This document shows, in pieces, positions 6,902 to 19,156 of a stretch of 25,308 bases of DNA. A program made the translations under genes and the position numbers. The notes under the pieces are model-generated. The model was not told where the DNA came from. It did not search any database and saw nothing but the letters and a program-made list of their open reading frames with translations. The stretch comes from a virus: IMG/VR virus record IMGVR_UViG_3300030102_000699, positions 288 through 25,595 of that record, one strand, 5' to 3'. Within the stretch, counting starts at the first letter, position 1. Every line of letters begins with the position of its first letter.

Positions 6902-6930
6902 GTTATATCAGCTTACATCCTTCGTGTCAA
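6902..6930 (-). promoter_or_regulatory. Sigma70-type promoter for the SSB-recombination-RNR section
   Basis: On the leftward strand, TTGACA (6925-6930) and TATAAC (6902-6907) are separated by exactly 17 bp. The site mostly overlaps the last codons of the polymerase gene and lies about 35 bp before the SSB start. It could boost expression of SSB and the genes after it independently of the replication genes upstream. Confidence 0.7.
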
Positions 6931-8947
6931 GCCAATTTGGTCCAATTTTTGCCTCAAGAAGTAGTGGTACATTAAACTTAATACCCCAACGTGTAGTAAT
7001 CAAATCAGGTAAGTCTCTGTTTGTCTTGTTTATTGCTTCGACTACTGCTCGTTCTTCTTCAGGGTGTACGTCAATAACAATACTGTCATGAACTGTATTG
7101 ACTATACATGATTTCATTTGGGATAGCAACCCCTCAATGTGCATTAATGCAATAGGCACAATGTCTGCTGTGGCAAATGATTGCACAGGGTAGTTCTTTA
7201 TCTGCGTAAAGTGTGATACCCTGCCGCTTGCCTTACGTACAACATCAGGAAAAGCAAACTCTCTGCCTGAAGGTGTGCGTATTACACCAGTGTTCAGAGC
7301 CTCTTTAGCCAATTTGGTATGCCAAAGCCCAATACCTTCGTACTTCTCTGTGAAGTGTGTGTAGTACTTTGCTTCGGCTGGTGTGCGTCCGAACCCTGTT
7401 GCCCCGTAAAGGGGCGCAAAGGTGTGCGCTTTCGCAGTCTGTCTATCCGTAGGCTGACCAGCATTAGTAATAACTTTAGCGGTGTATGAGTGTACATCAA
7501 ACCCAGTAGAAACTTCTTCAATAGCTACTCCATCTTGTGATAGGTAGGCGGCAGCACGAAACTCTAGCTGTGCAAAGTCAGCTTCAAGTATCTTGCCACC
7601 ATCCCACCGTGATACAAATACTTTCTTTACAGGGAACGTACCACCACGTGGCATGTTCTGCATGTTAGGGTCAGCACCTGAGAACCGACCAGTGGCAGTG
7701 CGATGCTGAAGCAGACGCACGTGCAGTTTACCATCTGACTTAGTGTGTGTTGAGATACCATCAACGAATGATGACAGGTATGTATCCACGGCACTGAGCC
7801 TACGAACTTTGGCAAGGAAGTCTGCCGCATCGGACATGCCCTTTGCCTTTGCAATATTCTCAAGTGTCTCTAGGTTCTGCTTACTTGTAGTGAACCCATT
7901 AGCACTTGCCCATTTAGCAGAAGGTGGTTTGAACTTGAGGCCAGCAATCTCGCTAGTGGGGTTGAAGAGAAAACCTGCTGTATCACAGGTAGTACAACGA
8001 TTAGGTCTTGCATATGGTGTACCATCCTTCTTTGTCTTAGTTATGTATCCTGACCCAGAGCAATCTGTACATTGAACCGCTTTGGTTTTATACAGACGCT
8101 CTGTGCCAGACGACAGGAGATTGCGGAAGTCATGCTCATCCATGTAAGGGTCAATCGTATTAGCCCAATACGTTTTATCTAGAACCTTACGTGAGTAGAT
8201 GACCCATGACAACTGCTCTGGGCTATTCAGATTGATAGGTGTGTCACCCATCAAATCACGTACATGCTTTTGCAAATCCTTTAGTAGTGTATCCTTTTCA
8301 TTCTCAAACTCCTTGCGTACATCTTCCAATGCAGCAGTGTCAACAGTGAAACCTGATTGATAGATACGTGCTAGTGATACACACACCTGATTGGTCAAGG
8401 TAACTGTATCGTACAGCCGACTGTCTGTCGTATTCAAACGCCACATCAGCTTGTTACTCAACTGCTGTGTAGCATGAAGGTCAGCAGACAGATACTCCTT
8501 CAGTTCATCAATAGGAATATCACGGGTAGAGTATCCCTTCTTGAAGTACTCTTTCAGTGTGTCTTGCTTCTTAGTATCTAATTCATATCTCTCAGCACAA
8601 GCCTCGAGAGACAGTGGCTGTTTCTGACCACGCTGCAATACATACTCAGCAAGCATAGTATCGAACACAGGTCCATCATATTTAAAACCTGACTCCCACA
8701 GCCACAGCAAATCGTGGGCTGCATTGTGCATGATAAGTACAGTTGCCTCATCCAAGAACCACTGAACCCTCTCATGGTAATCGTGCTGGCTCTCATGCTC
8801 AGAGTGGTCAAACGGAAAGTGCATCTCAACATCTTGGTCAGTCAGCACACCAACCATAGTCAGTGAGTTCTCTGGCTCAAAAGGGTCAAGATGCATCTTG
8901 CCATCACGATGCGTTACTGTATTTTCTACGTCTAATGTTACTTTCAT
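6908..8947 (-). CDS. polA: Family A DNA polymerase with a DnaJ-type zinc insertion
   Basis: The 679-residue replicative polymerase has an N-terminal 3'-5' exonuclease: Exo I Asp6/Glu8, Exo II Asn75/Asp79, Exo III Tyr152/Asp156. The polymerase domain shows motif A with Asp457 (ADFAQLEFR), motif B at 502-515 (Arg502, Lys506, Phe510, Tyr514) and motif C His620-Asp621-Ser622. Between them, residues 293-325 carry two cysteine pairs. The first is CTDCSGSG, a textbook DnaJ CxxCxGxG unit; the second is CTTCDTAG. A DnaJ-like centre is known from phage HMO-2011. Phe510 aligns with E. coli Pol I Phe762. The start overlaps the helicase stop (TAATG). Confidence 0.95.
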   Translation of the reverse strand: MKVTLDVENTVTHRDGKMHLDPFEPENSLTMVGVLTDQDVEMHFPFDHSEHESQHDYHERVQWFLDEATVLIMHNAAHDLLWLWESGFKYDGPVFDTMLAEYVLQRGQKQPLSLEACAERYELDTKKQDTLKEYFKKGYSTRDIPIDELKEYLSADLHATQQLSNKLMWRLNTTDSRLYDTVTLTNQVCVSLARIYQSGFTVDTAALEDVRKEFENEKDTLLKDLQKHVRDLMGDTPINLNSPEQLSWVIYSRKVLDKTYWANTIDPYMDEHDFRNLLSSGTERLYKTKAVQCTDCSGSGYITKTKKDGTPYARPNRCTTCDTAGFLFNPTSEIAGLKFKPPSAKWASANGFTTSKQNLETLENIAKAKGMSDAADFLAKVRRLSAVDTYLSSFVDGISTHTKSDGKLHVRLLQHRTATGRFSGADPNMQNMPRGGTFPVKKVFVSRWDGGKILEADFAQLEFRAAAYLSQDGVAIEEVSTGFDVHSYTAKVITNAGQPTDRQTAKAHTFAPLYGATGFGRTPAEAKYYTHFTEKYEGIGLWHTKLAKEALNTGVIRTPSGREFAFPDVVRKASGRVSHFTQIKNYPVQSFATADIVPIALMHIEGLLSQMKSCIVNTVHDSIVIDVHPEEERAVVEAINKTNRDLPDLITTRWGIKFNVPLLLEAKIGPNWLDTKDVS

Positions 8948-10942: not shown

Positions 10943-11860
10943 TTAATCACTTTCCTTTGCGGCACTTGCTGTACTTGTACCATGATTTTTACGCTGCGTC
11001 AATGCATAATCTGCACTAGTCAGTGTATTTTTTAAGTAGGGTGTGACCGATTGTGCATTAGCATGTCCTGTTACCGACATTATTTGTCCAATACCGACAC
11101 CAGCCTCAACCATCTCTGTTGTGCCTGTCCTGCGTAGGTCAGACAGTCTCAGTTCCTTTGGCAACCCTGCCTCATCCATAATCTCACGTGCGTGTAGTGG
11201 TAGCTTTGTGAGTGAGTAGGGTTGGTATACACCACGTATGGGATTAGGTCTAGGGGCTACATATTCTTGGAAGCCAAAGTCCTCATTCTGTTGTACAAGC
11301 ATTGTGTATAACTCATCTGATATAGGCAAGAACACCTCTGCTCTACGCTTTGACTGTTCAATATGTACTGTTTGGTCAACTAGATTGACACTATCCCATG
11401 TCAGCATACGCATATCACCCAGACGTTGACACCATTCGTATGCCATTTGTGCGATAAGACCGATGTTACGCCACCTAAAATCGCTGTAGGCTACGTTCAG
11501 GAAGGTCTGGACATCATCCCTACCCCAGACAACCTTACGCTTCTCTACGGCTCTCTTACGCACGATAGCGAAGGGATTGGTCTGGCACAGTTCTTCACGC
11601 ACACCGTGATTAAACACGATGCGTGTCACAGAGATGGTATGGTTGGCAAGATGTATACCACGTTCACACCACTCATTGTATGCAGTTTTTGCCATACGTG
11701 TTGTAATTTTGTCACACTCGTAGTGGCAGAGGGATTGACCCTCCGCCTGAGTAGTGAGCAGCACGTTCAGAAAATACTTATACTGCGCTTTAGTTTCATC
11801 ACGTAACTGTTTGAAATCAAAGGACGAAGTATAATCATGTACTAGCTTCTGAAGTTTCAT
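10943..11860 (-). CDS. int: Tyrosine recombinase (phage integrase)
   Basis: The 305-residue protein has an N-terminal SAM-like DNA-binding domain (about 1-100) and a C-terminal catalytic domain. Box I gives Arg146 (QRLGDMR); a Lys around 171 lies in the beta-hairpin; box II gives Arg243, His266 (TGH) and nucleophile Tyr275 (TPYLK). The usual HxxR histidine is Ser240 (LSDLRR), a known but less common variation. Integrases insert phage DNA at a host site, often a tRNA gene. No tRNA fragment or obvious att core is visible here. It sits within the replication operon, TAATG-coupled to the DUF932 gene. Confidence 0.9.
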   Translation of the reverse strand: MKLQKLVHDYTSSFDFKQLRDETKAQYKYFLNVLLTTQAEGQSLCHYECDKITTRMAKTAYNEWCERGIHLANHTISVTRIVFNHGVREELCQTNPFAIVRKRAVEKRKVVWGRDDVQTFLNVAYSDFRWRNIGLIAQMAYEWCQRLGDMRMLTWDSVNLVDQTVHIEQSKRRAEVFLPISDELYTMLVQQNEDFGFQEYVAPRPNPIRGVYQPYSLTKLPLHAREIMDEAGLPKELRLSDLRRTGTTEMVEAGVGIGQIMSVTGHANAQSVTPYLKNTLTSADYALTQRKNHGTSTASAAKESD

Positions 11861-17052: not shown

Positions 17053-17082
17053 ACTTTACGTGGATTGCACCCCTAGTGTCAA
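17053..17082 (-). promoter_or_regulatory. Weak promoter-like site
   Basis: TTGACA (17077-17082) on the leftward strand with an 18-bp spacer to TAAAGT (17053-17058). The -35 is exact but the -10 matches only four of six positions. It lies in the 71-bp gap before the glycosylase-like gene. Confidence 0.35.
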
Positions 17083-17444
17083 GCAGCTTTACGTGCCGCC
17101 CACCCTCTAGGTGAACAGGCAAGCTGAGTAATACTGGAAACGTCAAAAGCCCCCATGTCAATTTCATGCGGACGCTTGGACAATTCCTTGTCTACAGCAG
17201 TCATAAGCAATTCAAATGTGCAGATAGAGTGTGACAAAATGCGTCCACCATATTCTGCTTTTAATTGCCTAGCCGCCACCCGACTAGCCTTGTATAAGCG
17301 AGTCTTAGACAGATTAAGCCCTGTCTTTTTCTTATACTTTGTGGCAATACGAGCGAATTTAGCCTGATTGCGTTCAGATAAATTCTGACCTGTCAAGCCT
17401 GTTGACTGTTTCCAATAAGACACCACGAAAGATACATTAGCCAT
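17079..17444 (-). CDS. Basic hypothetical protein, first gene of the leftward unit
   Basis: The 121-residue protein is strongly basic through its first 70 residues (KFARIATKYKKKTGLNLSKTRLYKASRVAARQLK), then helical and more neutral. The charge suggests binding to nucleic acid. It is the first gene after a promoter at 17484-17513, so it is probably among the earliest expressed. GGAG lies in the leader before the ATG. No family recognised. Confidence 0.65.
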   Translation of the reverse strand: MANVSFVVSYWKQSTGLTGQNLSERNQAKFARIATKYKKKTGLNLSKTRLYKASRVAARQLKAEYGGRILSHSICTFELLMTAVDKELSKRPHEIDMGAFDVSSITQLACSPRGWAARKAA

Positions 17445-17483
17445 AATAAAATCTCCTGTTTAGTTGTTGGCTGTGTTAGGCAG

Positions 17484-17513
17484 ATTATGCCTTGTATACA
17501 CACGCAATGTCAA
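17484..17513 (-). promoter_or_regulatory. Main leftward early promoter (predicted)
   Basis: TTGACA (17508-17513) and CATAAT (17484-17489) on the leftward strand with an 18-bp spacer. Transcription would begin near 17476 and reach the first gene after about 30 nt. The -35 box overlaps one arm of a 10-bp inverted repeat, so a bound protein or a hairpin could control it. Confidence 0.72.
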
Positions 17514-17561
17514 GAGGGGCAGTGCTTAACTGTCAAAAGACTAGCGCAATCGCCCCTCTTG
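17511..17561. repeat. 10-bp inverted repeat at the early promoter
   Basis: CAAGAGGGGC (17511-17520) and GCCCCTCTTG (17552-17561) are perfect complements with 31 nt between. The left arm overlaps the -35 box of the early promoter. No U-tract follows on either strand. It may be an operator or the base stem of an RNA element. Confidence 0.7.
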
Positions 17562-18161
17562 TATATGTTACAACCACGCAAGCACCAATTCTGGACTAAA
17601 TACGGTCTATCAGCGAAATATGCCAAGTCATAAGTCAGGCGTCAATTCCTGTGTTTAGACATTACTTGCGTTCCATTTGTAGATTAGGTGTGGCTTGCGT
17701 ATACCGACTTACAGTCACACGGGCTAGACAACAAACAAAACTAGCCCCTTCATTTATCGCCCATCACACTTTGACCACCCGTGGTTTTCTGGTCGCACCT
17801 ATCCTGTCATATGTACACCCCACTTGGTGATGCACACGGTTTCAGGACGGTTTACGCCCTCGCACTATCCCACGTAGCCCGCCCTATAGTCTGGCATGGT
17901 GGATGTTCGCCCAGCTAGACGGATTTCTCCCGTCATGATTGCCTAGTATTATGAGGTCTGCACCTGCGGCTTTTGGGTAACCCGTAACCCTGATATTATG
18001 GTGGCATTTCTGCCCTTAACTGTCAAGCCTGTATCAAGTTGCCGTGGCGATTAGATAAATCAGGCTCTAGAAAACCTAGCAGGAAAACGTGTCTTTTTCC
18101 GTTTCTGGCCAACCGCGTGTTGGTCGCTGTCTTCATGGTTTTATCTTAGCACCAGATAAAA
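17511..18161 (-). ncRNA. Candidate large structured RNA
   Basis: About 650 bp without a credible gene, roughly half G+C in places against AT-rich DNA on the right. Many short hairpins can be read: 18139-18146/18154-18161; 18082-18087/18095-18100; GGCA-GAAA-TGCC at 18003-18014 on the leftward strand; GACGG/CCGTC at 17918-17922/17930-17934, with GAAA at its tip on the same strand; 17720-17726/17741-17747 (GGGCTAG/CTAGCCC); 17511-17520/17552-17561. A long-range helix pairs 17576-17586 with 17687-17700. GAAA tetraloops appear only on the leftward strand. It could be a stand-alone RNA or a long leader. No tRNA or tmRNA pattern was seen. No known family can be assigned by eye. Confidence 0.5.
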
Positions 18162-18240
18162 ACGAAAAACAAGAAAAAAATAAATTATTTTACAAAGCAT
18201 TGTTTTTGTTAAGTTTTTTTATTGGGTATCTGGGGCAGAT
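18162..18240. other. AT-rich segment, possible unwinding region
   Basis: A run of A-rich then T-rich DNA with the inverted pairs AAAAACAA / TTGTTTTT and AAAATAA / TTATTTT. It lies between the divergent units and next to repeats. Easily melted DNA in this position could serve as a replication origin; the sequence alone cannot show this. Confidence 0.35.
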
Positions 18241-18423
18241 TGTTTGTGTTCATGATTAGTTTCTAGTTCGTTCCTGTTTCGTTCTAGTAGAAAATACCAG
18301 CAGGGCAGATAATGAGAACAGAACAAGAACGCTTTACGTGTATATATATGGTGTTTGCTAGGGGGGTATAGTCTGGGCAAAATATATGCACCGATACTAT
18401 CTTTTTACGTGCAATCTTAAAAA
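18241..18423. other. Non-coding stretch without clear features
   Basis: I see no gene here. There is a short pyrimidine-rich part (GTTCGTTCCTGTTTCGTTC near 18268-18286), with a roughly complementary GAACAGAACAAGAACG stretch near 18315-18330, which may form an imperfect stem. No promoter with good boxes was found. Confidence 0.4.
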
Positions 18424-18439
18424 GTTAGTACAAACTAAC
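18424..18439. repeat. 16-bp palindrome, possible operator
   Basis: GTTAGT ACAA ACTAAC: six-base perfect arms around a four-base centre. The size and symmetry fit a dimeric repressor site. No repressor gene is recognised in the window. Confidence 0.5.
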
Positions 18440-18516
18440 ATTTATTCTGCGTCAATTCATATGGTATCAGTTACCGATAGCAGATAAAGTGCTGATTTAA
18501 TTGTCTTTTTAACTTC

Positions 18517-18568
18517 AGGTTGCAAAAACCCTGCCCCATTTTCAGGCATAGGTTGCAAAATCGCCCCA
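18517..18568. repeat. Two-copy iteron-like direct repeat
   Basis: AGGTTGCAAAA occurs at 18517-18527 and 18550-18560, 33 bp apart, about three helical turns. Each copy is followed by GCCCCA (18533-18538 and 18563-18568). TTCAGG precedes or overlaps both copies. Direct repeats on one DNA face are typical of initiator or regulator binding. Confidence 0.5.
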
Positions 18569-18600
18569 ATTCAATGGCTTGGGCGTGAGCCACCCCCCGG

Positions 18601-18612
18601 GTACGTACGTAC
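18601..18612. repeat. 12-bp self-complementary GTAC repeat
   Basis: GTACGTACGTAC is its own reverse complement and follows a CCCCCCGG run. It may be a protein site or simply a short tandem repeat. Confidence 0.45.
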
Positions 18613-18775
18613 ATATACACATAAATACACAGATTAGGAATATTAAGTGTTAACCACAAGGGTAACTGTCAAACATATACACAGCTAGTTGCACAAAAAA
18701 TAGGCAGAATAGGTGGGGGTGTGTGGACTATGCAACACATCTGAACAAAAAGATGTTAAATATATATAAAAGGGG

Positions 18776-18804
18776 TTGACACTTGACCCATTTTTGAGTA
18801 TAAT
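18776..18804 (+). promoter_or_regulatory. Late/rightward promoter, perfect consensus
   Basis: TTGACA (18776-18781), a 17-bp spacer and TATAAT (18799-18804), all exact. A second set overlaps it: TTGACC at 18783-18788, 16 bp, TATAGT at 18805-18810. It lies about 130 bp before the first rightward gene. Confidence 0.82.
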
Positions 18805-18820
18805 TATAGTATAACAAAAC

Positions 18821-18893
18821 ACACTTAAAGTGTATCACTTAAATATTATTAATATTATCTTGTTAAATACACTTACAATGAACACTATAAGTG
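18821..18893. repeat. ACACTT/AAGTGT operator-like motifs in the rightward leader
   Basis: ACACTT-A-AAGTGT (18821-18833) is a 13-bp palindrome just after the promoter. CACTTA recurs at 18836-18841 and 18870-18875, with its complement TAAGTG at 18888-18893. A related TTAAGTGTTAA lies at about 18643-18653. The clustering around one promoter suggests repressor or activator binding. Confidence 0.5.
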
Positions 18894-18934
18894 ACATTGC
18901 TAAGTAATAAGATACGTGCTATAGGATTTTTCCC

Positions 18935-19156
18935 TTGACAAAATCTAAAAAATCAGTAAAACTATACACAGATAATGTACTTGATGCATTTTACGAAGCT
19001 ATACGTACTAACTCATTAGACCGCTTGCATATCCCCCATAGTGATGTCTTTTACGTGCGTCAGGCAGTTGAGGCGCACTACGGGCGTAAGTTCACTCTCA
19101 AGCATGTAGAGGACGCTATGAGAGCAGAGGGATGGAAAGAGCCAAATGAGCCATGA
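18935..19156 (+). CDS. Small hypothetical protein, TTG start
   Basis: The first codon is TTG, with AGGA eight bases before it and a stop (TAA, 18908-18910) closing the frame just upstream, so no ATG alternative covers the conserved-looking part. The 73-residue product is basic and helical (KSKKSVKLYTDNVLDAFYEAI ... HVEDAMRAEGW). The stop is ATGA-coupled to the next gene. It is the first gene after the rightward promoter. No family recognised. Confidence 0.65.
   Translation: MTKSKKSVKLYTDNVLDAFYEAIRTNSLDRLHIPHSDVFYVRQAVEAHYGRKFTLKHVEDAMRAEGWKEPNEP

Follow-up and report, generated by a model that had tools for sequence, protein, structure and literature searches.

What is encoded in the roughly 650 bp that separate two divergent gene blocks in a marine phage genome? 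We analysed 25,308 nt of viral DNA (the window), a portion of a 25.6-kb IMG/VR record, in which the initial annotation had placed a possible large structured RNA at 17511-18161. Our analysis indicates that the minus strand from 17989 to 17511 very probably carries a conserved, structured, trans-acting phage RNA. Comparison with related loci, the decisive line of evidence, suggests a new RNA family, unmatched in Rfam, that is carried by marine phages of the HMO-2011 type.

The locus and its gene-order slot

The window comes from an HMO-2011-type marine phage, judging by its DNA polymerase (6908-8947, minus strand). Along its full length this protein shares 75.6% identity with the polymerase of Puniceispirillum phage HMO-2011; its identity with the polymerases of the Roseobacter phages CRP-345 and CRP-1 is 69-70%. 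Phages of this type are among the most abundant marine phage groups (PMC9038755), and a polymerase of the same type (66-86% identity) is present in 12 of 16 records bearing the RNA. A leftward block, with the polymerase and a tyrosine integrase, and a rightward block, with a phage lysozyme and a small terminase subunit, diverge around 17.4-18.9 kb. Three genes are referred to below:

10943-11860, minus strand: tyrosine integrase, in the leftward block
17079-17444, minus strand: 121-aa gene without a Pfam or PHROG match, the usual downstream neighbour of the RNA
18935-19156, plus strand: divergent 73-aa gene that borders the opposite side of the slot

With this integrase, the phage may be temperate. 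In most loci with informative flanks, the RNA lies between a homologue of the 73-aa gene and the leftward genes. The gene that follows it usually encodes the 121-aa protein; L032 and L049 have a homologue of HMO-2011 gp01 there, and in L028 and L098 the downstream gene is different again. The slot coincides with the strand switch and the GC-skew turning point, beside an AT-rich conserved non-coding block. A non-coding block at 18604-18880 shows patchy conservation that reaches as far as HMO-2011, CRP-1 and CRP-345 (81-89% identity) and contains a rightward promoter-like site (12/12) at 18776-18804; it is likely a late promoter or replication origin region.

The interval 17511-18161 had been singled out partly for its composition, and its G+C content (47.9%) is indeed above that of the DNA to its right (34.8% in 18162-18900). 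It had also been credited with at least six short perfect hairpins, a count that proves to be at chance level against shuffles: shuffled sequences average 2.0 hairpins with stems of at least 6 where the interval has 3 (a number reached in 95 of 300 shuffles), and 8.0 with stems of 5 where it has 9.

Homologues of the element

In blastn comparisons of intergenic DNA, 17449-17989 is 88-90% identical to L005 and L007, identity with L001 and L003 is 73-79%, and a deep conserved core at about 17724-17805 recurs in many further loci. A search with the 121-aa neighbour protein supplied 24 loci, and others came from core-based pattern scans and a protein-alignment search. The window and 34 other loci score at E below 1e-23 (nhmmer, core covariance model), scores that arise by construction for most of the 35, which built the model; L019, L024, L073 and L094 were not among the loci it was built from, L164 and L175 joined later, and some loci are near-duplicates. 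Altogether, about 35 viral contigs carry the minus-strand element from 17511 to about 17989 in this gene-order slot. Across homologues of 17511-17989 there is no shared coding frame, in agreement with the initial view that the interval holds no credible gene; an intact protein frame in relatives had been named there as evidence against an RNA. Open frames in L001, L002 and L014 were considered as a coding reading and rejected, not being common to the window, and viral matches L095-L097 and L099-L106 were set aside as chance.

The RNA was sought in nine isolates (HMO-2011, CRP-1, CRP-345, CRP-2, CRP-603, CRP-207, CRP-3, CRP-738 and HTVC033P) and found in none of them, so the phage group can do without it. 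Isolated phages gave nothing in blastn with other members of the RNA, and a pattern scan of bacterial genome contigs yielded nothing beyond short matches to the P5 hairpin of the kind expected by chance. We found no earlier description of the RNA in the literature searched, and the words 'non-coding' and 'intergenic' do not occur in the principal paper on HMO-2011-type phages (PMC9038755). In group B, for instance in L045 and L051, the RNA-bearing stretches have 31-36% G+C, close to the range given for likely pelagiphages (PMC9038755). Carriers of the RNA therefore probably infect more than one kind of host.

A covarying core with three pseudoknots

The conserved part and its elements, listed 5' to 3' along the RNA with each contact beside its hairpin, are:

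17511-17989, minus strand: conserved part of the structured RNA (5' end 17989, 3' end 17511), from identity, core model and covariation
17915-17946, minus strand: 5' stem with inner hairpin GACGG-GAGAAAU-CCGUC (17918-17934), from alignments
17881-17895, minus strand: P1 hairpin with a 7-nt loop
17864-17890, minus strand: pseudoknot 1 (PK1), P1 loop 17886-17890 (ACUAU) with 17864-17868 (AUAGU)
17801-17848, minus strand: P2 (GUCCUG/CAGGAU) closing the P3 hairpin, with conserved ACCAAG loop
17773-17794, minus strand: P4 hairpin GACCA/UGGUC, from alignment A2 and part of model R1
17780-17874, minus strand: pseudoknot 3 (PK3), junction 17870-17874 (CGUGG) with P4 loop 17780-17784 (CCACG)
17721-17747, minus strand: P5 hairpin with conserved 13-nt loop UUUUGNNNNNUGU
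17676-17735, minus strand: pseudoknot 2 (PK2), P5 loop 17731-17735 (UUUGU) with 17676-17680 (ACAAA)
17688-17720, minus strand: P6 stem GUGUG/CACAC with inner hairpin, from the group A alignment; missing or substituted in some subgroups

This structure is supported by covariation in sequence-based alignments. In alignment A2, which holds 31 sequences of the 190-nt core, 86.3% of cells in the core helices are paired, against 29-42% with the partners shifted by 1-3 columns, pairing being counted in the same sequences from which the structures had been derived. Change on both sides is seen in 24 of 29 core pairs, and the core covariation score is 0.520 against 0.249 for shuffled data, with no shuffle as high; the controls preserve column make-up or relatedness, never both, and the shuffles carry no phylogeny correction. 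P1 (94% paired, both-sided change in 4/4 pairs) and P5 (100% paired across the 31 sequences, 4/6 pairs compensatory) are also recovered by RNAalifold unaided. P2 and P3 also show both-sided changes, and are 75.7% and 68.8% paired in an alignment whose register drifts between groups. The sequence of the 5' stem depends on the subgroup, yet a stem is retained immediately before GCGAAC.

The three long-range contacts covary as well. PK1 is 93.9% paired in the 31 sequences, with 2-3 pair types per position and both-sided change in 5/5 pairs. PK2 joins five variable bases of the P5 loop to the five bases after AAUCU, and forms 77 of 85 possible pairs in 17 distinct combinations (shuffled mean 57; 0/20000 as high), among them UUUGU/ACAAA in the window, UUAGU/ACUAA in L003, UUGGU/ACCAA in L001, UCUGU/ACAGA in L032 and GAGAU/AUCUC in L071. 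For PK3, with the register chosen identically for real and shuffled data, all 40 of 40 pairs form, in 8 distinct combinations (CGUGG/CCACG, AGUGG/CCACU, CUAGG/CCUAG, CGAAG/CUUCG and CGGAG/CUCCG among them; 0/20000 shuffles as high), when the L011-type group (L011, L066, L068 and L069), in which the contact is not formed, is excluded; with that group included the count is 46 of 50 (0/20000 shuffles).

The 3' domain, the terminal stem and the strand

17574-17685, minus strand: 3' domain, with covariation in three subgroups
17665-17670 with 17577-17582, minus strand: P7, CGCAAG/CUUGCG
17654-17658 with 17596-17600, minus strand: P8, in the 3' domain
17620-17631, minus strand: CUUG-loop hairpin, in the 3' domain
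17511-17561, minus strand: 3' terminal stem-loop CAAGAGGGGC...GCCCCUCUUG, with an internal GCGCUAGUC/GACAGUUAAGC motif also present in relatives

In 3/3 subgroups a long-range helix closes the 3' domain, with the CUUG-loop hairpin inside. Its pairs read CGCAAG/CUUGCG and CACAAG/CUUGUG in one subgroup, CUCAA/UUGAG and CCCGA/UCGGG in another, and are of the AUUAUAUGA/UCAUAUAAU type in the third. The domain is 99.6% paired in group C, 88.3% in group A and 91.1% in group B, with compensatory changes in all three. The stem-loop that follows is, from its sequence, the probable 3' end of the RNA, and the T-run after it is weak. The conserved part in the window measures 479 nt, and the whole element, with 3' domain and terminal stem, about 480-520 nt.

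Across all alignments, the best-supported helices contain 43 G-U against 4 A-C cells when read on the minus strand. Since a plus-strand reading would turn the G-U cells into mismatches, the minus strand is the RNA. The leftward RNA proposed at the outset is therefore borne out by these counts, and comparison of relatives reveals extensive compensatory changes specific to that strand, but the original argument from GAAA loops is weak. As initially stated, 18003-18014 gives GGCA-GAAA-TGCC when read on the minus strand, but this hairpin falls outside the conserved RNA, on its 5' side, and the closest relatives do not retain it. The hairpin at 17918-17934 has a 7-nt GAGAAAU loop rather than a tetraloop, and this loop is kept in L005, L007, L032 and L049 and is almost unchanged in L030. 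Folding-energy z-scores (-2.6 plus, -1.7 minus) do not discriminate between the strands. The conserved RNA does lie within 17511-18161, but conservation with the closest relatives begins only at 17989, so that the approximately 170 nt at the right end are probably upstream or promoter sequence. Thus the conclusion of a large structured RNA is supported, and the reasons first offered for it were weaker than the conclusion itself.

Promoter-like sites and predicted transcripts

18184-18212, minus strand: candidate promoter upstream of the RNA, TTAACA-17-AATAAT (10/12), on weaker evidence
17484-17513, minus strand: separate promoter-like site for the downstream gene, TTGACA-18-CATAAT (11/12)

We infer that the element is transcribed as a separate RNA. 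Promoter-like sites precede it in L032 (TTGACA-17-TATACT, 11/12) and L047 (TTGACC-17-TATGAT, 10/12), from which transcripts of about 515-520 nt are predicted; for L038, a promoter-like site at the expected place before the RNA was not reported. In the window, initiation from the site at 18212-18184 would give a predicted transcript of about 667 nt. Upstream of the RNA in L001, L009, L012 and L088 there are repeated TTGACA-17-TAGCGT (or similar) modules, with GCCC...GGGC inverted repeats near the -10, resembling tandem operator-controlled promoters.

Modular divergence and other occupants of the slot

Homologues diverge in modules across the relatives. L164 and L175 retain the core and the 3' domain with the P5/PK2 hairpin exchanged for another insert, a replacement that, at the level of sequence, suggests domain swapping. 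A second structured RNA type, which looks related, occupies the same slot in L008, L009, L010, L012 and L088; its positions in four of them are:

L008, 1-420: second RNA type
L009, 3530-3960: second RNA type
L012, 3460-3890: second RNA type
L088, 1980-2470: second RNA type

Like the window RNA, it has a CGAAC start, a similar GACC(A/T)AG motif and the same kind of terminal stem, and, except in L088, it shares its 5' stem with L001. Unlike the window RNA, it has different central and 3' domains, and it scores at most 7.9 bits with the core model. The slot holds a short protein frame (MAKARLGKRERAKLREV...) in L002 (3000-3665) and L004 (3350-4001), and other sequence in L014.

What the RNA may do

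We propose that the minus strand from about 17989 (with a possible start near 18177) to 17511 would encode an autonomous non-coding RNA. In its compact folded form a stem would immediately precede the 190-nt core, three covarying pseudoknot-type contacts would form within and close to that core, and a 3' domain closed by the long-range helix would follow, with the terminal stem last. Made during infection and folded, it would act in trans, in kind like GOLLD and ROOL. Action in trans is what we infer to be most likely, because of the size of the RNA, its structure and its dedicated slot.

One way of acting in trans would be through a specific target, as a decoy, an antisense RNA or a counter-defence factor, rather than as a self-assembling particle, and we entertain this reading tentatively. 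GCGAAC, ACCAAG, AAAUC, GGGCG and the P5 loop are nearly invariant outside helices, as binding sites might be, and phage ICP1, whose most abundant transcript is a large non-coding RNA (PMC7567579), offers a precedent for high expression of such RNAs in infection. However, our analysis identified no target or partner, and the swapping of whole domains does not point to one fixed antisense target.

Another way to view the element is as a cis-regulatory leader of gene 17079-17444, a riboswitch-like element or attenuator located in its 5' untranslated region. The RNA usually lies directly upstream of this gene on the same strand, and its terminal stem could serve as an attenuator. We nevertheless consider a leader improbable, because the separate 11/12 promoter-like site follows the RNA and because the next gene varies. 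Relatives have sigma-70-like TTGACA...TATAAT sites in the same place after the RNA, and the changes of downstream gene in L032/L049 and L028/L098 leave it in constant association with no one gene or function on the same transcript; its size and three pseudoknots are also beyond those of usual leaders. An element acting as DNA (a replication origin, or protein-binding sites with cruciforms and inverted repeats), to which the strand switch, the skew turning point and the adjoining AT-rich block would be suited, is very improbable, given that the helices tolerate G-U and not A-C on the minus strand, that long-range pseudoknots covary, that 18604-18880 is a better origin candidate, and that an origin would not be conserved in a slot which in relatives holds a protein frame or another RNA.

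Comparison with known large RNAs

GOLLD, described partly from marine samples, and ROOL are RNA-only nanocages whose function is unknown. To our knowledge, very few large ornate RNA classes have been recognised in bacteria or phages. With its length of several hundred nucleotides, covarying structure and pseudoknots, the trans-acting RNA that we propose here is a large ornate phage RNA in the same sense, so that the initial likening to GOLLD and ROOL was apt as to kind; membership in either is unsupported. As had been anticipated, no family could be assigned: the window and its relatives gave no Rfam match at gathering score and only unrelated weak scores at relaxed thresholds. Neither the GOLLD model (RF02032) nor the ROOL model (RF03087) matched at E<=1 in 12 records (the window's and 11 relatives), and 14 control genomes were likewise without a match, which leaves the sensitivity of both searches uncertain.

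Like GOLLD, the window RNA is a large ornate phage non-coding RNA with loop-junction contacts found by covariation, and with one part conserved and another variable; unlike GOLLD, it is shorter, is arranged differently and has no tRNA nearby. ROOL is likewise a phage RNA of about 500-650 nt with several pseudoknots. It frequently, if not strictly, lies near tRNA genes, whereas the 25.3-kb window contains no tRNA and no tRNA island. An approximately 800-nt transcript of ICP1 without an orf has been likened by length to GOLLD and ROOL (PMC7567579); it belongs to a different phage, and is comparable with the window RNA by size and lack of an orf alone.

In ROOL and GOLLD, loop-junction contacts predicted by covariation are bridges between copies in RNA-only cages (PMC12286853). 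Because PK2 and PK3 resemble such contacts, the window RNA might, by analogy, assemble through them into a particle or scaffold, a mechanism that is our best guess, though a speculative one. That it constitutes a further class of RNA, unrelated in sequence to GOLLD and ROOL, self-assembling via PK2 and PK3, and with interchangeable domains in one slot of abundant marine phages, is a broader suggestion and a rather doubtful one. This RNA family, represented by about 35 natural variants and showing domain swaps as well as three or more covarying tertiary contacts, lets one ask whether RNA cages, as in GOLLD and ROOL, are a general phage strategy.
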